Shown here one piece after another: positions 9,577 to 32,709 of a DNA stretch of 33,410 nt (within the stretch, counting starts at the first letter, position 1; every line of letters begins with the position of its first letter). The notes under the pieces were generated by a model. That model saw only the letters and a list, made by a program, of their open reading frames with translations. It made no database searches and was not told the DNA's origin. The position numbers and the translations under genes are program-made. The DNA comes from Clostridiales bacterium CHKCI006 (lineage in GTDB: Bacteria; Bacillota_I; Bacilli_A; Erysipelotrichales; Coprobacillaceae). Location: NCBI GenBank assembly GCA_900018345.1, contig FCNA01000084.1, positions 1-33,410 on the forward strand, read 5' to 3'.

Positions 9577-12500
9577 CTACTCTAGTTCACGTTTTCTTCT
9601 AAACATGATCAGCGCTGCTCCGGTCCCAGAAATAACAACCAGTCCCACCAGCATTGTCGTATTCTCATGATCTCCTGTTGGGACATCCGGAAGTAAACGA
9701 TTGGTCATCGTGATTTCATAAAGCTTCGTTTCATCATACTGATCATCAATGACCACCTCTATCGGATCACTTTCCAACACATAACCTTCTGGCGCTTTCG
9801 TTTCCTTCAGTGAATAGATTCCCTGTGTCACTACAAAGCTGGCAAGACCATTTTGATCGGTAAGCACGCTCATCAGTGCATTGCCTTGTTCGTCATATAA
9901 AGTAAACTCCGCACCAGCTAAGGTCAGACTTTCATCTGCCTCGTCCACTTTATGGATCTGAATGCTGGTTTCTTTCAGTACATTAAGGATCTCTTCACCA
10001 TCATTGATTTGAATCGTATACGCTGTCACTTGCGGTCCGCGATAGGTAACAGAGAAATCGTACTCTGTTTCATTCAGTTCATAAGCGTCATTGGTCTTCA
10101 GTTCCTTGATATAGTAATCGCCCAGTGGTAAATCAACACTCGTCATTAAATGTCCCTCTTCATCAACAGCGCTCGTGTAGACAAGACTATCTTTGGCAAT
10201 ACCGACACTGCCATCTGCCATCAGGATATCGTTTCTTGCAAAGATGCCAAAGACGACGTCCGCATAGGCATTGGAATAATCATAATGATTCGTTTCCATG
10301 ACCTTAGTCAGATCTAATGTGACCGAGGCACGATTATTAAAGACATCCATGTCCACGTTGACTCCCTGTATATCTTCATCCTTGATCTCAAAAGCATACA
10401 CTTCATTATTTTGGACAAAACCATCAGGGACATTCGTTTCTTTCAGATAATATTTACCAACCAGCAGCGCATCTGAAATAGCCTTCCCCTCTTTATCTGT
10501 TTTCAAAGTCATGATAGCCTCATCCTTTTCAAAATACGTGATCCCATTACCGAGTGTGATATCCTCAGCGGCATAGATCGTAAATTCAACACCTTCAAGT
10601 CCTGCTTCATTAAAGACAGGGGTATGTGTCGTGCCAAAGTCGCTTTCGCCTTCGGTGACCTCATTAAAGAGGTTACCGGTCTTATGGACAGTCACCTGTC
10701 CGGTCTTTAATTCGTCTAGCATCTCTATCTCCTGAATCTCGCCGGTATCACCCACCACAAATTTGATTTCATTCGCAAAATCAAAGCCTAATGGATGAAT
10801 CATCTCGACTAAGGTATATTCCTTCCCGACTTCTAAGCCTTCAATGATATGTGGTTCCTCACCACTGATCCATTCATCCACGATGTTGCCTTCTTCATCT
10901 CTGACCTCCAGATGGGCACCCGGTAATTCTTCTGATGTCGTGGCATCTTTCTTAGAAATCTCAACTTTTGTGATCTCATTTTCAAACGTATAACTAAAGG
11001 TGATGATTGCTTCACCACTATTGGCGACGGTGTCAAACATATAAGCTAATGGATAGCTTGCATAACCAGTCGGTGCTTTGGTTTCAACTAAAGCAAAACT
11101 TCCGTTCACATCACCCACGATCCGATAGCCATCGATCACGGTCTGTGAGAAATTGGGATCGATTGCCTCCTCATCCGAAGCGGCCATTGCTTCGATGATC
11201 GGCAGATCGATAGAGAAACGAACTGTCCCATCAGCTGTTGTGGTCACTGTTTCTAAAGCAGTGCCTGCATCCACGATGACTTCACCTTCATAATTAACGA
11301 TGTCTTTTGCGGCATATAATGTAATCTCAGCTCCGGTAACCGCTTCCTTGCTGTCAACATCAACCTTGATCGTATCCAGCTGAACCTGTTGTCTTTCATT
11401 CACAAAAGAGACACTTTCTTCAACTAAAGCAACTTCTTGTCCTGCATAAGCTAAAGTAACATCCTTTGGTTCCGCATTCAGCGTATAACCATAAGGTGCT
11501 TTCGTTTCTACGACCTGATATTTACCTAACGGATGGAACTGACTGATGGCATCCCCGCGTACATCGGTTACCAAATGTTCAACCACTGTCCCTTTTTCAT
11601 AAATAACAGCACCGTCATTGGATGGATCCATGATATCTTCAGCGGCGATGATGTCATATTCGGCTCCTTTTAATCCTCTCTCTTCGTAGATGAACTGGCC
11701 ATCTTCATAACCTACTAAGACCTCACCGGACTTATTGATCTTGATATGACCTGCAACTGCCTCATCACCAATCTTAACAGTGACAATTGCATCACCATCT
11801 TCATCCATAATAAAAGCACCTGTGTTGGTAATCTCAAAAGGAACTGCTTCCTTATTGAGCACATAACCTTCAGGTGCTTTGATTTCTTCTAACTGATAAG
11901 ATCCCGCATCGAGTTTTAATGGTGTAGAGACCATGCCTGTTTCATCAGTTGTAAAAGTATCTATTGTCTCAAAGATACCGACCTTCTGTGAAACAAATTC
12001 ACCGGTGGCCATATCTCTGATCTTAAAGCTGGCTCCTTCAATGGCAACTGTCTTGCCCGTATCTTCATCCACTTTGATGATCTTGACATAAGCTTCAAAC
12101 GGTCCATCATTCATCACGCGATAAGGTAATGGTTCACGACTATCTTGATTGATCACAACTTCAAAATCCGCAACTGCAGTGACTTCATCCGGTGTCTTAG
12201 TCTCTCTTACCGTATACGTACCATAAGGTAACTCGATGGAGACATCATAACCCTGTTCATCCGTTACCAGCACATCATACGTTTTGGCAGCTTCCCAGCC
12301 ATTGGCGGTAACATCTGATTTTAATTTAACGGTAAACTCAGCACCAGCCAATGTTTCCGTTTCACCGGTAGAACCATCACTGGAGACCTTGATCAAACTG
12401 AAGGCCTGCTTCATGACCTGATCTGTGGCATCCACATGTACGGATACATGAGCGGTCTCTTGATCCTGATAAATTAAGGAAATCTGATACGCTGTTTCGT

Positions 12501-14178
12501 CTAAAAGGTAACCCTCAGGTGCTTGAGTTTCTTTGACATAGTAGTTGCCTAAAGGTAAATTAGACCACTGCACCTGATCATTTCCATTAAAGGTCTTGGT
12601 GGCATTGTCACCCCATTGACCAGAAATGGTCACTTCAGAGTTGGTGGGGAATATAACGGATCCACTGGCGGGATCTTTGATATCTTCTGCAGCATACAAG
12701 GTATATTGTGCGCCTTCTAAAGTTGCATCCCCCTGTGCCGCTGATCCTGTTTCCTTATCTAGCTTACTTAAGGTAACGGTCCCCGTCACCGGTTCATTAG
12801 AGAAAGTTAACTCTACCACTTGTCCTGCTTGGCTAATCGCTGCATTTTCGTTAACTTCTGTGATAACATAGTTTTCAGGCGCCTGTGCTTCACGAACCGT
12901 ATAAGAGCCATAGTCTAATAAACCAGAAGCAGCGATGCCATTGTCATTCGTATAAATCGTTTCAATGACTGAACCATCTTTCACGATTTCAAAAGCAACC
13001 CCTGCCTGTTTAACTACCTGATCAGTCTTAGCATCATATTTTGTGACTTGAATTTTGCCTTGCTTCCAATTGTTGGTTTGGGTGTAATGAGAAGTTATTC
13101 CGGCGGTGATCGTAATCGAATGAATCGTGCTGTCCAATATCAGATGTTCAGGCACACTGATTTCTTGAATATAGACTGTTTGTGGTTGTAAATCTTCGAT
13201 CGTCACCGTTCCATCACTGCCTGTAGTATAAGTACCAATCGGGTCACGCATGTCTGCATGATAAGAAAGCTTAAACTGCGTATCAGGAACATAGACGCCA
13301 CGATCATCCTGTTTAGCTAATTTTAGATTTCCTGTCTCAACCCAATGAACAGTGAACCCACCATAGTTTCCTGGATCCATAATTGGTTTCAAATATCCAA
13401 TATCCTGTAAATTGTTATTAGAACTCGTTAATACAATCGGTTGATAATCTGGAAGATTTCCTTTTACTTCTCCCGTATTCCAAGTTCCATTTACAGTCAA
13501 AGGTGCTTCAAAATGAAAAGTGTCTCCGCCATTGATAGTGACCTGACCGGTCAATGACTGTCCATTACGGACCATCGTGACGTTGGATGGCAGAGTAATT
13601 GTGATTGAGTTATCACCATTCATGACCATGTTTCCAGTAATTTGTTTTTCTCCTTGAACAGTCGCATCTACACTTGACGGACTGAAAGAAATACTTCTGT
13701 CTGGTAATTCTTTACCATCAATATAATTAAGAAAGTCATATACACCTAATTCCCGATTTCCTGTTTCACCACCCGACGCAATCGATTCCGGACCACTATA
13801 CAAATATGACAACGCTAAAGAAGTTACGACAATTGCATTATTTGTACTTTTAAACCCAGACCAGGGTTCAATACCATCATATCCATAATACAACGCTTTA
13901 AGCATCTGCTCATCATCATATATTGATTCAGCAAATACTGTCCCTGTTGAAGGTGTAGACTTAGGATGTTCTAAACAAAATGCCTGTCGTCCATCGACCA
14001 CAAAATTACCCACTGTCGCACTTCCATAACGACCTTGACTATCGCTGATCTTTCCTAAATATTGAAAGCTCGTATAGGCTTCAACATTCATGGTATTCAT
14101 CACTATTGGATAGATGAAAAGGCATACTGCCAGGACTATCTTCCATAGTCTACAAGATTGTTGTTTAATCACATTCAT
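9577..14178 (-). CDS. Large SpaA/Cna-B repeat surface protein with sortase-type anchor
   Basis: 1533 residues. An N-terminal signal peptide (about 1-35, ending NVEA) is followed by a thioester-domain-like head with a Cys in RQAFCLEH (residue 68). About eleven SpaA/Cna-B prealbumin-like domains follow. Each ends in a variant of ETKAPEGYVL (ETQAPEGYLL, EIKAPEGYVL, ETNVPDGFVQ and so on), which holds the Glu used for Lys-Asn isopeptide bonds in this family. The C-terminus is a sorting signal: VPTGD, a hydrophobic segment and FRRKRE. In the head, the position where TQxA thioester domains have Gln reads VVTSLALS, so a classical Cys-Gln thioester is uncertain. VPTGD is one residue shorter than LPxTG. 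The likely role is adhesion to host tissue or mucus, or a pilus subunit. The ATG at 14178 has AAGGG six nt upstream; a TTG seven codons earlier is open but has no site. No sortase gene lies in the window. Confidence 0.9.
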   Translation of the reverse strand: MNVIKQQSCRLWKIVLAVCLFIYPIVMNTMNVEAYTSFQYLGKISDSQGRYGSATVGNFVVDGRQAFCLEHPKSTPSTGTVFAESIYDDEQMLKALYYGYDGIEPWSGFKSTNNAIVVTSLALSYLYSGPESIASGGETGNRELGVYDFLNYIDGKELPDRSISFSPSSVDATVQGEKQITGNMVMNGDNSITITLPSNVTMVRNGQSLTGQVTINGGDTFHFEAPLTVNGTWNTGEVKGNLPDYQPIVLTSSNNNLQDIGYLKPIMDPGNYGGFTVHWVETGNLKLAKQDDRGVYVPDTQFKLSYHADMRDPIGTYTTGSDGTVTIEDLQPQTVYIQEISVPEHLILDSTIHSITITAGITSHYTQTNNWKQGKIQVTKYDAKTDQVVKQAGVAFEIVKDGSVIETIYTNDNGIAASGLLDYGSYTVREAQAPENYVITEVNENAAISQAGQVVELTFSNEPVTGTVTLSKLDKETGSAAQGDATLEGAQYTLYAAEDIKDPASGSVIFPTNSEVTISGQWGDNATKTFNGNDQVQWSNLPLGNYYVKETQAPEGYLLDETAYQISLIYQDQETAHVSVHVDATDQVMKQAFSLIKVSSDGSTGETETLAGAEFTVKLKSDVTANGWEAAKTYDVLVTDEQGYDVSIELPYGTYTVRETKTPDEVTAVADFEVVINQDSREPLPYRVMNDGPFEAYVKIIKVDEDTGKTVAIEGASFKIRDMATGEFVSQKVGIFETIDTFTTDETGMVSTPLKLDAGSYQLEEIKAPEGYVLNKEAVPFEITNTGAFIMDEDGDAIVTVKIGDEAVAGHIKINKSGEVLVGYEDGQFIYEERGLKGAEYDIIAAEDIMDPSNDGAVIYEKGTVVEHLVTDVRGDAISQFHPLGKYQVVETKAPYGYTLNAEPKDVTLAYAGQEVALVEESVSFVNERQQVQLDTIKVDVDSKEAVTGAEITLYAAKDIVNYEGEVIVDAGTALETVTTTADGTVRFSIDLPIIEAMAASDEEAIDPNFSQTVIDGYRIVGDVNGSFALVETKAPTGYASYPLAYMFDTVANSGEAIITFSYTFENEITKVEISKKDATTSEELPGAHLEVRDEEGNIVDEWISGEEPHIIEGLEVGKEYTLVEMIHPLGFDFANEIKFVVGDTGEIQEIEMLDELKTGQVTVHKTGNLFNEVTEGESDFGTTHTPVFNEAGLEGVEFTIYAAEDITLGNGITYFEKDEAIMTLKTDKEGKAISDALLVGKYYLKETNVPDGFVQNNEVYAFEIKDEDIQGVNVDMDVFNNRASVTLDLTKVMETNHYDYSNAYADVVFGIFARNDILMADGSVGIAKDSLVYTSAVDEEGHLMTSVDLPLGDYYIKELKTNDAYELNETEYDFSVTYRGPQVTAYTIQINDGEEILNVLKETSIQIHKVDEADESLTLAGAEFTLYDEQGNALMSVLTDQNGLASFVVTQGIYSLKETKAPEGYVLESDPIEVVIDDQYDETKLYEITMTNRLLPDVPTGDHENTTMLVGLVVISGTGAALIMFRRKRELE

Positions 14179-14212
14179 ACTATACCCTTGTCCTTTCAAT
14201 AGATTCGTTCAA

Positions 14213-15537: not shown

Positions 15538-16038
15538 TTATTTTAAAGGAATACGCGTATAGTATTCCTGCTCATCTTCATGATCGATATAAGCACCGCA
15601 ATTCAGCATCGCTTTTAAACTGCCTGTATTATACTTATAACAACTTAAGTAAGCTAGATCGATTCCCCTTTCTTTAGCCTTTTCCAAACAGAGTTTCAAT
15701 CCTGCGGTTGCATAACCTTGACGCCGAAATGCAGCACCGATTCCAAAACCGATATGCCCTGACCCATTTCTCAGATTTTCATTAAGATAATGGCGCAATT
15801 TGAAGACTCCTACAGCCTTGTTGTCATTGTTAAAGAGTACATAAGTGGTCTGAGGTACCTTCCAGGCTGGAAGTCCGATTCCCATTGCCGCTTGTTCACT
15901 TTTTTGAACCCATTGTTTGAAGATGTCCCGCGGCATATCTTTGGCTTCATTCATAAAGCCGTTTTCATTGGCTGGAAAGCTTTGAAAAAGGGCATAAATA
16001 TCGTTATCGTTACATAACCACAGTTCTTTTAAGTACAT
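15538..16038 (-). CDS. GNAT-family N-acetyltransferase
   Basis: 166 residues. The acetyl-CoA loop of the GNAT fold is seen in GIGAAFRRQGYATAGL, followed by a helix with KAKERG and a C-terminal strand ending NCGAYIDHEDEQEYYTRI, which is typical of RimJ/L-like or small-molecule acetyltransferases. The substrate is unknown. The ATG at 16038 has GAGGGGGG six nt upstream; a TTG seven codons earlier is open but lies before that site. It lies 56 bp downstream of the deacetylase gene on the same strand and also has a promoter of its own in that gap. Two tandem terminators follow. Confidence 0.85.
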   Translation of the reverse strand: MYLKELWLCNDNDIYALFQSFPANENGFMNEAKDMPRDIFKQWVQKSEQAAMGIGLPAWKVPQTTYVLFNNDNKAVGVFKLRHYLNENLRNGSGHIGFGIGAAFRRQGYATAGLKLCLEKAKERGIDLAYLSCYKYNTGSLKAMLNCGAYIDHEDEQEYYTRIPLK

Positions 16039-16062
16039 GCGGATCCCCCCCTCTTTCAAGCT

Positions 16063-16091
16063 ATTCTACACTATTTTTTCTACTGGAGCAA
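16063..16091 (-). promoter_or_regulatory. Promoter of the GNAT gene
   Basis: On the minus strand TTGCTC (16091-16086), 17 bp, then TAGAAT (16068-16063), 24 nt before the start codon. Confidence 0.55.
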
Positions 16092-16094
16092 TTC

Positions 16095-17486
16095 CTAATT
16101 AAAAATCTGATGATGAATCGGGGTCGTTGAAGCATCAATCGCCTTAAAAACATAACCCTGCTGCAAATAATAAACGATGAGTTCTTCCAATACCTCCACT
16201 GTCGCCTGATTTCCTGAACCATCATGAAGCAGCAGCATTAAATCGCCCTGAAGTTCTGTCTGCGCTTTCCCAGTCACTAAGATATCATTCGCATCATGTC
16301 CCAAGACCGCATCATCCACAGAGCTGTTCCAGTCAAAATACTGATAACCCTGCGCCTCTACTTCATTAGCCAGCTGACTCATGATCCCCTCATGATAGTG
16401 GCGACTGACAATATTGCTTGAACCACCCGGAAAACGTATAAAGGTGGAAGGTGCGCCGGTCTGTTCCTGTACTACAGTCTGAATCTTTTCAAGATCCTGA
16501 AAATAAGCTTCCACACTCTGATAAATCTGACTATATTGATGAGAGTAAGTGTGCAGTCCAATCGTATGTCCTTGCGCATAGGCTGACTGAATCTGTGAAG
16601 TATAGTCCGGATTCATCCCCGTGACAAAAAAACTGGCTTTGACCCCATAGCGATCTAAGATACGCAGCACATCCTGAGTATGCTGGCTGGGGCCATCATC
16701 AAATGTCAGATAAACATAGCGCACATGCGCATGATCCTGGACGGGTATTACACGAATAGGAATCAGTGTCGTTGTCGTATTGCCGGAACGATCGCGCAGA
16801 GTGGCCTGAATCTCATAATCACCTAATTCGTAGATAGGATGCTCATCCAGCTCAGTAGTTAACTGTAGACTGGGATCGCAATCATCGAAAATTTCCAGAC
16901 CAGGCAGACCCAATTTCAGACTTTGCCCTTGTTCCACTTCCAACCTTCCGTCAACTTCGATGGAAGGTGCCGTCGTGTCGATCATGATAAACGTGACTTC
17001 CTGCATGACGATCGTCTCATTGCCATACGCATCGGTCGCTTTGATATATACGGGATTGATCCCCCTGTGCCAATCTGGTTTTTCTAAAAAAGAGAATCGC
17101 ACTTCCGAATGGTCCGTGTATCCTACAATGAAATCTTCTACCATAACCACGCTTGGCCATAAGCGTGTCACATTTTGGGCCTGTACGACAGGCGGTGTCG
17201 TATCCTTCACTTCCACTGTCAGTTTTTTAGTCTGCGCAAATAAAGAATAGACAACCTCATAGGATCCAGGCTGCACCACATTGACAGGATTTTCAATCGC
17301 TACAGGCGCAGTATATAAGCTATAGCCTAAAAACGCATCCGGATCAAAAGTTTCGCCTACTTCAATTTCCACGCTGTCTTCCAGCAGGATCAATGGTTTA
17401 AAAGCCAATGCTAAGATAGCAGACATCATGATGCCCATAGTCAATAAAATGATCCATTGCACGCCTTGATTTAATCTCGGTCTCAT
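16095..17486 (-). CDS. Membrane-anchored polysaccharide deacetylase with Ig-like domains
   Basis: 463 residues. A single N-terminal membrane segment (about 10-32) is followed by Ig-like/DUF5011-type modules (about 35-250, with the repeated DTTPPVV and DTTAPSI starts) and a C-terminal NodB (CE4) domain. All five CE4 motifs are visible: TFDDGP, HTYSH (the metal-binding His pair), RFPGGS, DWN and LLHD. This is the layout of peptidoglycan N-acetylglucosamine deacetylases, which modify the wall outside the membrane and give lysozyme resistance; other glycans are possible. The ATG at 17486 has AAGGTG six nt upstream; a GTG three codons earlier lies inside that site. An insertion sequence ends only about 20 bp upstream, which separates the gene from a TATAAT-type promoter at 19172-19177. 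Confidence 0.92.
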   Translation of the reverse strand: MRPRLNQGVQWIILLTMGIMMSAILALAFKPLILLEDSVEIEVGETFDPDAFLGYSLYTAPVAIENPVNVVQPGSYEVVYSLFAQTKKLTVEVKDTTPPVVQAQNVTRLWPSVVMVEDFIVGYTDHSEVRFSFLEKPDWHRGINPVYIKATDAYGNETIVMQEVTFIMIDTTAPSIEVDGRLEVEQGQSLKLGLPGLEIFDDCDPSLQLTTELDEHPIYELGDYEIQATLRDRSGNTTTTLIPIRVIPVQDHAHVRYVYLTFDDGPSQHTQDVLRILDRYGVKASFFVTGMNPDYTSQIQSAYAQGHTIGLHTYSHQYSQIYQSVEAYFQDLEKIQTVVQEQTGAPSTFIRFPGGSSNIVSRHYHEGIMSQLANEVEAQGYQYFDWNSSVDDAVLGHDANDILVTGKAQTELQGDLMLLLHDGSGNQATVEVLEELIVYYLQQGYVFKAIDASTTPIHHQIFN

Positions 17487-17507
17487 CCTATGCACCTTTC
17501 TTTCTGT

Positions 17508-17520
17508 TATGAAGTGACCT
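17508..17520 (+). repeat. Right subterminal inverted repeat of the IS
   Basis: TATGAAGTGACCT, the exact reverse complement of 19122-19134. A second inverted pair lies further in: ATTCATAATAA at 17541-17551 and TTATTATGAAT at 19085-19095. Confidence 0.75.
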
Positions 17521-17568
17521 TTGTCAAGTGAAAATTACACATTCATAATAAAATTATCTGATTTTACC

Positions 17569-17815
17569 ATCAATGGCATACAAAAGCCCCAAAATATTAG
17601 ATTTATCGACAGTTAACCACTCTGTTATACGGGGATTGGGTACCCCAAGGTCAATGGTTCGTCAAATAAGTTCTAACTATCTATTAACGTGGATCATCAA
17701 TATTTTTGACATTTCAAGATCGCGACTTCTTTTATATCCTATTCATGCCACAAAGAAAGGACCGTAGATAACTAAACCTGCTTCTCCTTTTTTGAGGCTT
17801 CTCTATGCCATTGAT
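17569..17815 (-). ncRNA. Candidate bridge/seeker RNA of the IS
   Basis: This is a structured segment in the non-coding end downstream of the transposase. Its ends, 17815-17790 and 17594-17569 on the minus strand, can pair over 26 positions with 25 pairs, two of them G-U and a single G-G mismatch. The G-U pairs exist only in the RNA of the transposase strand. A GGTACC-centred hairpin (TTGGG/CCCAA, 17636-17648) lies inside. IS1111-group elements are known to encode their guide RNA in this end. Segments matching the element boundaries and the flank (17752-17760, 17764-17771, 17621-17628) support this. It is longer than reported seeker RNAs, so the functional part may be smaller. An alternative is a decayed second inverted-repeat element. 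Confidence 0.5.
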
Positions 17816-17915
17816 TTTGTGTCTGTTTCTCTCGACTTTTGTCTTCCTTTTTATTAATTTTTTTTCAGTTGTGTTCCTACCATCATAAGATATTCTACAC
17901 CATTTAACTAACTTC

Positions 17916-19028
17916 TTATATTCTTCCTGTTTCCATTCCCCATATAAATCCTGCTAATTCTCTTGCCACTGCCATGATGGCTACATTATATGGTTTCCCT
18001 CTTAATACCATTCTTTTAAATCTCTTCTGTAATCTTTCAACTGCTCTATCAGCATAGGCTATTACTGCATCATCCTGCCCTTTTTGTCTCTTTTTCAACG
18101 CTTTTGATTTCTTTCCATTTCCCTTTACCAGTGCCTGTGTACATTCTACAAGTGTCTTTCTGACCATGGCATTCCCCATCTTGGTGATTGGCGTATTGCT
18201 GTGTTTCTCTGCACTTGAGTTCTCTCCGGGCAGCATCCCCAGATTGGCCATGAATGCCTTTGCGGTTGGAAAGCGTTGAAAATCACTTACTGTGACATGT
18301 ATCTTCATTGCTGATAATGTATCAATTCCCTTGAAGCATGATATCTTTGAAACAGGTTCCTCATATTCTTCTTCATGTGAGAATTCTTCTATTCTTTCAT
18401 CATATTTTTTAATACGTTCATTCAAATAATCATATACTTTCAGATACTCATTTAATGTCTCTCTTGTGATTTCTGGCAATTCAATTGTTTCCAGCCATTT
18501 GATGTGTGCAATAGTCCAGTTGCTTTTACCTTCATATCTGAATCCATGGCGTAAAGCTAGAGCACTAATCTGCTGCTTGATTCTCTTTCTTGAGCTGATG
18601 ACATCTTCTCTTAAGCCAATGTATTCCTTGATTTCATTGTCATGTTCTGTTGGCACATGGACAGCTTTGTATGAATTGTACATAAGATTAGTGGCAATAT
18701 TAAAGGCATCCATCCTATCGTTCTTTACTTTTTTGTTTTTGACTGATCCATGCATTGTTGATGGTGCCAATATAACACATGATACATCATGATATGCAAG
18801 TTCATGATACAAGGAAAATCCTAAACACCCTGCTTCATATCCAGTTACAATTTCCATTTCATCTCCTTGGCTTAATCTTTCTTTAGCTGAATCAATAAAT
18901 TTAAGAATATTCTCTACATCAGCTCCACATTTTGTCTGTGCAATAATTTCTCCTGTTGATGAATGAATTCCACATAAACTGTACGTATTTTTATGGACAT
19001 CCATTCCAATATAGATTATACTTTTCAT
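17916..19028 (-). CDS. IS110-family transposase (DEDD recombinase)
   Basis: 370 residues, intact. The N-terminal RuvC-like DEDD domain shows Asp10 (IGMDVHK), Glu65 (TGYEAG), Asp104 and Asp107 (KNDRMDAF). The C-terminal Transposase_20 domain has FKGIDTLSA, then GMLPGENSSAEK with the Ser pair 271-272 (the candidate nucleophile) and ITKMGNAMVRKTL. Such enzymes recombine a circular element into short targets chosen by a structured guide RNA. AGGAGG lies 5 nt before the ATG, but that site is half of a 12-bp inverted repeat, so translation is probably restrained. The catalytic residues are all present, so the element could be active. Confidence 0.95.
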   Translation of the reverse strand: MKSIIYIGMDVHKNTYSLCGIHSSTGEIIAQTKCGADVENILKFIDSAKERLSQGDEMEIVTGYEAGCLGFSLYHELAYHDVSCVILAPSTMHGSVKNKKVKNDRMDAFNIATNLMYNSYKAVHVPTEHDNEIKEYIGLREDVISSRKRIKQQISALALRHGFRYEGKSNWTIAHIKWLETIELPEITRETLNEYLKVYDYLNERIKKYDERIEEFSHEEEYEEPVSKISCFKGIDTLSAMKIHVTVSDFQRFPTAKAFMANLGMLPGENSSAEKHSNTPITKMGNAMVRKTLVECTQALVKGNGKKSKALKKRQKGQDDAVIAYADRAVERLQKRFKRMVLRGKPYNVAIMAVARELAGFIWGMETGRI

Positions 19029-19129
19029 AGTGACCTCCTATTGTCGTTGTGGTATCGACTTTCATAATTTTGTTTTTACACATCTTATTATGAATCGTAA
19101 TCCACGTTTTGGCAACCTAGGAGGTCACT
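19029..19129 (-). promoter_or_regulatory. Leader stem hiding the transposase ribosome binding site
   Basis: In the minus-strand RNA AGTGACCTCCTA (19129-19118) pairs perfectly with TAGGAGGTCACT (19040-19029), which is the Shine-Dalgarno region ending at the ATG. Inside are further stems: GTTG/CGAC, GTGG/CCAC, CGA/TCG and an 8-bp TTCATAAT/ATTATGAA under an 18-nt loop. Translation from read-through transcripts would be blocked. Confidence 0.6.
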
Positions 19130-19134
19130 TCATA
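19122..19134 (-). repeat. Left subterminal inverted repeat of the IS
   Basis: This is the reverse complement of 17508-17520. The same AGTGACCT core recurs a third time at 19029-19036 within the leader stem. Confidence 0.75.
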
Positions 19135-19171
19135 TTATCTACTTAGTTGTAGTTTGTGTTGTTTTTAGCCA

Positions 19172-22305: not shown

Positions 22306-22353
22306 GATTATAACAACTGAGTAAGATTCTAAGCAAAAGGGAGCGTGATGTAT

Positions 22354-24423
22354 ATGAGAACTTATCAGTCTACCGAAATAGGAAATGTCGTTGTCCTTGG
22401 TCATGCTGGCTGTGGGAAAACCAGTGTGATCGAAGCGATGCTTTATCGTTCCGGCGGGTCGACCCGTTTAGGCAAGATTGCCGATGGGACAACGACAAGC
22501 GATTATGATGCAGAAGAAATGAAGCGCAAAGTATCCATCAATGGTACAGTCATCCCAATGGAATGGGAAAACTGTAAGATCAATATCCTGGATACACCGG
22601 GCTACTTCGATTTCGTTGGTGAAGTCAGACAGGCACTGAAAGTGGCCGATTCTGCTTTGATCATCGTTCCAGCTACTCAGGGCATCGATGTCGGTACCGA
22701 GATTGCCTGGGAGAATGCCAAACATCTGCCAAAGATCATTTTTATCAATGGTTTAGATGAACGGAATGCTTCATTTGATCAGAAACTGGCAGAGCTGAAA
22801 GAAAAATTCGGCAAGACGATTGCCCCTATTCAGGTTCCAATCATGGAAAATGGTAAGATGGTCGGCTATGTCAATGTCGCTAAAATGGAGGGTCGGCGTT
22901 TCAATGGTGAATGGACCGAAGAAATTCCGATTCCTGAAGAGATGATGGATGAAGTTCGTCCAGTGCGTGAAATGATCCTAGAAGCCGTCGCAGAAACAAG
23001 TGATGAACTGCTTGATAAGTTTATGAACGGTGAAGAATTCACGCGTGAAGAAATTTCCTGGGCCTTGCGCAAAGGTGTTTTAAATAATGAATTAGTTCCT
23101 GTATTATGTGGTACCCAGAATATCGGTATCCAGATCATCTTAAACTCTATCGTTGCTTTCTTCCCAGCCGCAGCGGATACGGTTAACTCATTTATCGTTA
23201 AACATGTCAACACAGACGAAGAAGATATCATCGGTTATAATGAAGCCCTCGCACCATCCTGCTTTGTCTTTAAGACCGTAGCAGATCCATTTGTCGGTAA
23301 AATTTCTCTATTTAAAGTTTGCACCGGCGTGATCAAAGCGGGTATGCCATTGTACAATACAAAAAAAGGTGAAATAGAAAAGCCAAATAAGCTCTATATG
23401 ATGAAGGGCAAAGACCTGGTGGAAGTTGAAGAACTCCATGCCGGCGATATCGGCGCTTTCTCTAAATTACAGTTCACTTCAACAAATGATACACTTTGTC
23501 AGGAAAACGATCCTGTTTTATATGAAGATATAGTTTATCCGCATCCTTATTATACCAAAGCGATCCAAGCTTTAAGTAAAGGGAATGAAGATAAGATCTC
23601 TAATGCAATCAATAAGCTCTTAGAAGAAGACCAGACACTGCGCTTTGAGACCCATCCAGAAACCAAGCAGCAGCTCTTATCCGGTATCGGTGATCAGCAC
23701 TTGGATATTACCTTATCTAAACTGAAATCCAAATTCAAGATTGAAATTGGTCTGACAGATCCAAAACTGCCATATCGTGAAACCATCCGTGGTAAAGCAC
23801 AGGTACGCGGTAAGCATAAAAAACAATCCGGCGGCCATGGTCAATACGGTGATGTTGAAATCATTTTTGAACCATCCGGAGATCTTTCAAAAACGTATGT
23901 TTTTGAAGAAAAAATCTTCGGTGGGGCTGTGCCAAAATCCTATTTCCCTGCGGTCGAAAAAGGACTCGCTGAATGCTGCCAGAAAGGAGTATTAGCGGGT
24001 TATCCGATGGTTGGTGTCAAGGCTACTCTGGTCGACGGCTCCTACCATGATGTCGATTCCAGTGAAATGGCCTTCAAGCTGGCAACCGCAATTGCTTATA
24101 AAGAAGGTATTCCTAAAGCCAAACCTGTGATCTTAGAGCCTATCATGTCCTGCAAGGTCACTGTTCCAGAAAGCTACACCGGTGACATCATGGGTGACTT
24201 CAATAAACGTCGAGCACGTGTCATGGGTGTTGAACCCATCGAAGGGACGGATCAATGCGTTATCGAAGCCGAAGCCCCTCAGGCAAATATGATGAACTAC
24301 CCTATTGATCTGCGCTCAATGACGCAAGGACGTGGTAACTTCGATATGGAATTTGTAAGATATGAACAAGTGCCATCGGATGTTCAAAACCAGATCATTC
24401 AAAAAGCAAAAGAAGAAGCCTGA
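22354..24423 (+). CDS. Elongation factor G-like GTPase (EF-G2 type)
   Basis: 689 residues with the full EF-G domain order. The G domain has P-loop GHAGCGKT (16-23), the DGTTTSDYD switch region and DTPGYFDF. Domain II follows, then domain III, domain IV (RETIRGKAQVRGKHKKQSGGHGQYGDV) and domain V to the end. The Ala/Cys P-loop and the DGTT(T/V)SD segment mark the EF-G paralogue group (EF-G2), not the essential FusA. The G4 motif reads NGLD, not NKxD. The role is likely ribosome-linked but not defined. The ATG at 22354 is preferred over GTG 22345 and ATG 22348 because AAGGGAG (22337-22343) is too close to those. A terminator overlaps the stop. Confidence 0.88.
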   Translation: MRTYQSTEIGNVVVLGHAGCGKTSVIEAMLYRSGGSTRLGKIADGTTTSDYDAEEMKRKVSINGTVIPMEWENCKINILDTPGYFDFVGEVRQALKVADSALIIVPATQGIDVGTEIAWENAKHLPKIIFINGLDERNASFDQKLAELKEKFGKTIAPIQVPIMENGKMVGYVNVAKMEGRRFNGEWTEEIPIPEEMMDEVRPVREMILEAVAETSDELLDKFMNGEEFTREEISWALRKGVLNNELVPVLCGTQNIGIQIILNSIVAFFPAAADTVNSFIVKHVNTDEEDIIGYNEALAPSCFVFKTVADPFVGKISLFKVCTGVIKAGMPLYNTKKGEIEKPNKLYMMKGKDLVEVEELHAGDIGAFSKLQFTSTNDTLCQENDPVLYEDIVYPHPYYTKAIQALSKGNEDKISNAINKLLEEDQTLRFETHPETKQQLLSGIGDQHLDITLSKLKSKFKIEIGLTDPKLPYRETIRGKAQVRGKHKKQSGGHGQYGDVEIIFEPSGDLSKTYVFEEKIFGGAVPKSYFPAVEKGLAECCQKGVLAGYPMVGVKATLVDGSYHDVDSSEMAFKLATAIAYKEGIPKAKPVILEPIMSCKVTVPESYTGDIMGDFNKRRARVMGVEPIEGTDQCVIEAEAPQANMMNYPIDLRSMTQGRGNFDMEFVRYEQVPSDVQNQIIQKAKEEA

Positions 24424-32231: not shown

Positions 32232-32307
32232 TGGCGCTTGAAGTAGGACTCGAACCTACGACCGATCGGTTAACAGCCGATTGCTCTACCGACTGAGCTA
32301 TTCAAGC
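32232..32307 (-). tRNA. tRNA-Asn (anticodon GTT), copy 2 in transcription order
   Basis: 76 nt with an encoded CCA. The acceptor stem GCTTGAA/TTCAAGC, the anticodon loop CTGTTAA and the TTCGAGT T-loop are all regular. It differs from the copy at 32634-32709 by one base in the D-loop. Confidence 0.97.
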
Positions 32308-32309
32308 AA

Positions 32310-32383
32310 TGGAGCGAGTGATGGGAATCGAACCCACGTAGTCAGCTTGGAAGGCTGAAGTTCTACCATTGAACTACACTCGC
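32310..32383 (-). tRNA. tRNA-Gly (anticodon TCC)
   Basis: 74 nt with an encoded CCA; acceptor GCGAGTG/CACTCGC and anticodon loop CTTCCAA. Confidence 0.97.
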
Positions 32384-32386
32384 AGA

Positions 32387-32462
32387 TGGTGACCCGCAGG
32401 CGATTCGAACGCCTGACCCTTTGATTAAAAGTCAAATGCTCTACCGGCTGAGCTAGCGGGTC
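32387..32462 (-). tRNA. tRNA-Lys (anticodon TTT)
   Basis: 76 nt with an encoded CCA; acceptor GACCCGC/GCGGGTC and anticodon loop CTTTTAA. Confidence 0.97.
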
Positions 32463-32470
32463 ATGATAAA

Positions 32471-32546
32471 TGGTGGAGGCTAACGGGCTCGAACCGCTGA
32501 CCCTCTGCTTGTAAGGCAGACGCTCTCCCAACTGAGCTAAGCCTCC
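32471..32546 (-). tRNA. tRNA-Val (anticodon TAC)
   Basis: 76 nt with an encoded CCA; acceptor GGAGGCT/AGCCTCC and anticodon loop CTTACAA. Confidence 0.97.
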
Positions 32547-32549
32547 GAA

Positions 32550-32625
32550 TGGTGACCTGTACGGGATTCGAACCCGTGAATGCATGCGTGAAAGGCATGT
32601 GAGTTAACCGTTTCTCCAACAGGCC
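32550..32625 (-). tRNA. tRNA-Glu (anticodon TTC)
   Basis: 76 nt with an encoded CCA; acceptor GGCCTGT/ACAGGTC (one G-U pair) and anticodon loop CTTTCAC. Confidence 0.96.
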
Positions 32626-32633
32626 ACAAAAAA

Positions 32634-32709
32634 TGGCGCTTGAAGTAGGACTCGAACCTACGACCGATCGGTTAACAGCCGATTGCTCTACCAACTGAGC
32701 TATTCAAGC
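32634..32709 (-). tRNA. tRNA-Asn (anticodon GTT), copy 1 in transcription order
   Basis: 76 nt with an encoded CCA. It is the first tRNA of the operon and identical to the last one except for one D-loop base (GTTGG against GTCGG). Confidence 0.97.

Follow-up and report, generated by a model that had tools for sequence, protein, structure and literature searches.

Positions 1 to 33,410 of contig FCNA01000084.1 of Clostridiales bacterium CHKCI006 (hereafter the window, i.e. the whole stretch of 33,410 nucleotides (nt) that was analysed) contain a transposable element directly in front of a polysaccharide deacetylase gene, which raises the question what the structured, non-coding right end of this element encodes and why the element sits where it does. 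It seems that the minus strand of 17569-17815 encodes the bridge/seeker RNA of an IS1111-type element, as the earlier note had proposed, and that this RNA would act as in ISEc11 and IS621; on the basis of sequence comparisons, we put the probability of this reading at roughly 0.95. It is supported by the match between a right guide and the right flank in 27 elements and between a left guide and the left flank in 17, by a covarying structure, by the position downstream of an IS1111-type transposase, and by the empty sites of relatives.

Judged from its sequence, the element is of the IS1111 type of the IS110 family. Its transposase matches PF01548 (DEDD_Tnp_IS110, N-terminal; 2.6e-16), PF02371 (Transposase_20, C-terminal; 6.4e-16) and the NCBIfam entry NF033542, 'IS110 family RNA-guided transposase' (5.2e-60). 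The ends, with subterminal inverted repeats of 12 base pairs (bp) and extensions of 7 bp and 3 bp, fit the proportions of the IS1111 group, for which repeats of 11-13 bp and extensions of 7 bp (left) and 3 bp (right) have been described (PMC11187229). Non-coding DNA amounts to 410 nt downstream of the transposase gene and 112 nt upstream of it. Elsewhere in the window's own genome, part of another transposase copy survives in decayed form (85 amino acids, 93% identical; G000:C83:114362-114621).

On one side of the non-coding segment 17569-17815 is the transposase stop (17916), on the other the right end (17506). A recount bears out what the earlier note had described for these 247 nt: the two arms (17569-17594 and 17790-17815) form 25 of 26 possible pairs in RNA of the minus (transposase) strand, 23 of them Watson-Crick and two G-U, and both G-U pairs turn into mismatches on the plus strand. 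The inverted repeat extends to 33 nt at 82% and is the longest that a repeat search found within 16000-18600. When folded and compared with shuffled sequences, the minus-strand RNA reaches -77.5 kcal/mol compared to -52.2 +/- 4.9 for the shuffles (z -5.16, 0/200), and the plus strand -55.5 kcal/mol (z -2.50).

DNA and protein searches yielded relatives in the window's own family, in further families of its order and class, and in Selenomonas, Lacticaseibacillus and Butyrivibrio. In each RNA, a variable stretch ending in CU sits right after the conserved GGUYYRRYUAUCU, and its reverse complement equals the right flank of the same element from the AG core onward. In permutation tests, which take no account of shared ancestry so that their counts overstate independence, this right guide matched its own right flank at 162 of 216 bases in 27 elements (permuted 100.9, maximum 125 in 2000), and with the core excluded (positions 3-8) at 117 of 162 (permuted 50.3, 0/20000 as high). 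Taken separately, the elements with Shine-Dalgarno targets gave 62/78 (permuted 34.0) and those with other targets 55/84 (permuted 24.0), each with 0/20000. The left guide is found across from the right guide in the same internal loop, where five bases plus AG, following GAUCCACG, repeat the left flank (77/102 versus 56.7 permuted, 0/5000; 17 elements). A scan for a left guide immediately following the right one gave no clear signal; the consensus structure then placed the left guide across the loop. Four copies in one genome (G077) that carry different guides are suggestive when taken alone and not significant (3290 of 20000 permutations as high). That different guides go with different flanks in distant elements would be hard to explain otherwise.

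A second copy in the window's genome (contig C10), flanked by AGAAAGGA, matches the right guide at 8/8, and an element on a Butyrivibrio plasmid fits at 7/8 (read by eye). On viral contigs a transposase search found none, and a search with the right-end pattern did find elements; these later-found junctions mostly show 5-8 contiguous guide matches, with the register unchanged, and one of them fits poorly. Insertion is precise and without target duplication in both elements for which the joined flanks were found uninterrupted, i.e. the element of genome G029, in two congeners (96% and 91%), and that of Lacticaseibacillus zeae (L067), in relatives. The latter sits in a repeat of ~80 nt, of which several genomes of the genus have tens of copies, and its guide GCGUUCU matches AGAACGC of that repeat.

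As for the position of the element, at 24 of 31 junctions in the window's clade a start codon that opens a frame of at least 50 codons follows after 9-18 nt, in the direction of the element. Control sites in the same flanks lie before a start codon in 538 of 3359 cases for AG (16%; binomial p 7e-14 for 24/31) and in 194 of 893 for AGGT/AGAA/AGGA (22%; p 6e-11). At AGGT sites the distance from junction to start is 9-12 nt, four viral-contig copies with the same kind of guide (CUCACCU) are found 10-12 nt in front of start codons, and elements with other guides have only 1 of 15 junctions before a start codon. Within the clade, the flanks read as Shine-Dalgarno sequences (AGAAAGGA, AGGTGA or AGGAGG), and the 16S ribosomal RNA (rRNA) tail GGAUCACCUCCUUUCU contains the guides UCCUUUCU and UCACCU as parts of its sequence. 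A 16-nt version of this tail occurs in 15 of 43 genomes of the family, in numbers and at positions consistent with rRNA operons; the exact 17-nt tail was searched for in the window's own draft genome and not found. Five right ends at contig edges (L015, L028 and L093-L095; genome G022), whose RNAs are missing from the assembly, have flanks that are mostly AGGAGG and similar, a third Shine-Dalgarno register.

It is probable, though well short of certain, that the Shine-Dalgarno preference is a real property of the guide. Likewise, we favour the view that the guides of this lineage have come to be copies of the 16S anti-Shine-Dalgarno tail, with two registers (UCCUUUCU and UCACCU) or more, by which ribosome-binding sites would become a genome-wide target, with each copy just upstream of or within such a site and in the direction of the gene. 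The window element itself has an upstream region with TATAAT on one side and, on the other, the ribosome-binding region of the polysaccharide deacetylase gene; it may take over the host promoter. Conversely, the guide RNA could be real and its place in front of genes incidental, if a purine-rich motif is matched and copies within genes or elsewhere are purged by selection. Gene-disrupting insertions are generally removed in this way, and 7 of the 31 clade junctions have no start codon in range. However, the guides are complementary to the motif itself, with a register that shifts together with the flank, the junction-to-start distances are narrow, and general purging does not predict that related elements with other guides stay away from start codons, which makes this a possible, though rather unlikely, explanation.

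None of the outcomes that, by the earlier note, would refute its reading was observed. Paired arms were kept by each of the 24 right ends compared, and they do not drift freely, with compensatory changes in 15 of the 23 pairs of the closing stem P1. Own 5' and 3' arms fold at a mean of -37.6 kcal/mol and arms swapped between elements at -21.1 +/- 1.3 (0/5000 permutations below -26.9 kcal/mol), in a test that is independent of the alignment. The consensus from a 16-sequence alignment comprises 53 pairs in four helices (P1, P2, P3 and P4), with 95.5% of cells paired and double-sided changes in 28 pairs, 15 of these in P1; sliding the partners by one column lowers pairing to 31-48%, a control that favours the consensus because this was derived from the very sequences tested. 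The secondary structure is thus conserved, as in seekRNAs and bridge RNAs. Paired arms could also be formed by a terminator or by a 3' hairpin protecting the messenger RNA of the transposase, for which the stability of the stem and its position downstream of the transposase would be suitable. However, the loop has ~190 nt, with covarying helices of its own and flank-matching guides, the covariation of guide and flank contradicts this reading, and a search found no terminator-like site, so that this explanation is very improbable. That 17569-17815 is a separate small insert, resembling a miniature inverted-repeat transposable element, is more improbable still, as the long terminal inverted repeats bounding the 247 nt might suggest it, but relatives with a contiguous locus, down to ~45% protein identity, have a homologous segment in this place, between the transposase and the right end, and none of the relatives examined is without it. 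The segment matched no Rfam family, and a sequence search of solved structures gave no match.

Returning to the bridge/seeker RNA, one of its segments (AUAACAG) follows the element's own right end: where this is TATC (L079) or TAGC (L086), the RNA has UAUCAG or UAGCAG, respectively. In the decayed copies L007 and L036, the donor guide does not match the right end. In each of the 13 elements for which both ends are available, joining them places TTGACA 17 or 18 nt from GATAAT, a spacing that suits a promoter at the circle junction.

Several observations weigh against the bridge/seeker reading, in addition to the shared ancestry mentioned above. For the window copy itself, an empty site was looked for and not found. 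The copy's right flank AGAAAGAA fits the right guide at 7/8, its left guide fits only 3/5 bases left of the core, L073 and L076 match their own right flanks poorly, and L133 fits the guide-flank pattern poorly. The second donor guide, the right one, is only suggestive: the RNA sequence CAUUA/CAUUG (CAUURAC) tracks the left end AGATAAT/AGACAAT (AGAYAAT) in most elements, and the same bases form P4. Finally, the transposase has 370 amino acids and the motif GMLPGENSSA, i.e. SA instead of SG, compared to 330-350 amino acids and GL-P----S(t)G, with SG/TG and occasionally TA, in described IS1111 types (PMC11187229).

The structure, both target guides, one candidate donor guide, the junctions and the target preference can be read directly from the compared elements. 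How the RNA would work we infer from these, and this holds for its transcription, its binding by the transposase, the chemistry of strand exchange, and any benefit of choosing ribosome-binding sites. The guide RNA and the transposase would be produced together, the likely promoter being TTGACA-17-GATAAT at the circle junction, and the long closing stem of the RNA would hold the target-binding internal loop and the hairpin with the donor guide. Each target guide would include the AG core, the right one (UCCUUUCU) pairing with the top strand in the right half of the target (AGAAAGGA) and the left one with the bottom strand in the left half; the AUAACAG segment matches the right end of the element. 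The transposase would then exchange strands at or near AG, giving insertion without target duplication. In the window's clade, a right guide that copies the 16S anti-Shine-Dalgarno tail would lead new copies to ribosome-binding sites, oriented like the gene that follows. The features on which this proposal is built are collected in Table 1.

Table 1. Positions, in window coordinates, of the element, its putative guide RNA and the surrounding target.
Feature	Position	Strand	Basis or remark
Whole IS1111-type element, 1635 bp	17506-19140	-	AGATAAT (left end) to CATAAC (right end); alignment of relatives and relatives' empty sites
DEDD transposase, 370 amino acids	17916-19028	-	Pfam PF01548 and PF02371; NCBIfam NF033542
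Left target half AACTAAGT, directly upstream of element	19141-19148	-	Sequence
Left extension AGATAAT, 7 bp, preceding left repeat	19134-19140	-	Sequence and relatives
Left subterminal inverted repeat ATGAAGTGACCT, 12 bp	19122-19133	-	Sequence and relatives
Putative bridge/seeker RNA domain within closing stem P1 (arms 17790-17815 and 17569-17594)	17569-17815	-	15/23 P1 pairs compensatory; own versus swapped arms
P2, 5' strand GGUUUAGUUAUCU	17766-17778	-	Covarying helix; 3' strands 17669-17674 and 17656-17660
Right target guide UCCUUUCU, complement of AGAAAGGA	17754-17761	-	27 elements, z 9.5; same letters as part of 16S rRNA tail
P3 hairpin closing target loop (UGGCAUGAA ... UUGAUGAUCCA)	17690-17750	-	Covarying helix
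Left target guide UUAAUAG, same sense as left flank and AG core	17681-17687	-	17 elements, z 5.2, 0/5000 permutations
P4 hairpin (UUGACC / GGUUAA), donor guide in loop	17613-17654	-	Covariation; compensatory change in L075
Candidate donor guide AUAACAG, identical to own right end ATAAC plus AG	17622-17628	-	Changes with right end in L079 and L086
TTGACA -35 box	17522-17527	-	Gains GATAAT -10 (19134-19139) at 17-nt spacing once ends join in circle
Right subterminal inverted repeat AGGTCACTTCAT	17509-17520	-	Sequence and relatives
Right extension AAC, 3 bp, after right repeat	17506-17508	-	Sequence and relatives
Right target half: AG core (17504-17505), AGAAAGAAAGG ribosome-binding region, ATG (17484-17486) of polysaccharide deacetylase gene	17484-17505	-	Pfam PF01522

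Elsewhere, the window encodes a surface protein of 1540 amino acids with ten SpaA-type repeats, a thioester domain and a TTG start (9577-14199, minus strand), an Elongation factor G-like protein of 692 amino acids that may be a second elongation factor G (22345-24423, plus strand), and six clustered transfer RNA genes (32235-32709, minus strand).

The RNA itself is of a known type; the combination of an anti-Shine-Dalgarno guide with ribosome-binding sites as target is unreported in the open-access literature searched, in which no IS110 or IS1111 element aimed at Shine-Dalgarno sites was found (subscription papers and preprints were outside the scope). It would be a natural case of RNA-guided insertion in which the guide equals part of the recognition code of the translation machinery, so that one guide serves many targets, mostly before a gene and in the direction of that gene. 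The related elements, about two dozen with varied guides, clear junctions and covarying structure, moreover form a set for working out the rules of guide, core and flank in IS1111-type systems.

Of the known systems, three come closest. With the IS1111-group elements that have a seekRNA (ISEc11, ISPa11, ISKpn4 and ISPst6; PMC11187229), the element shares the downstream non-coding region, subterminal inverted repeats with 7-bp and 3-bp extensions, a top-strand complement that precedes the bottom-strand match, the lack of target duplication and the circle-junction promoter. The text of the papers gives RNA lengths and no stem lengths, with 70-100 nt for the mature seekRNAs and 145-170 nt for the long form (PMC11187229). 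The domain here has 247 nt and a conserved closing stem of 23-26 bp that encloses guides and helices and may be longer than in described cases, as the earlier note had proposed, and a Shine-Dalgarno sequence is the target in the window's clade. With the IS110-group bridge RNA of IS621 (PMC11208160, PMC11208158), it has in common a bipartite target guide in an internal loop, candidate donor-end guides and a 2-nt core, but here the RNA lies downstream of the recombinase (upstream in IS621), the order of the guides is reversed, the core is AG (CT in IS621), and the donor guide is found in a hairpin off a multi-branched junction. In the latter respect it is like the predicted IS1111 bridge RNAs with donor nucleotides in a multi-loop (PMC11208160), where the donor-matching segment is likewise outside a simple internal loop; these structures vary by family, and the comparison is one by description, not by sequence.
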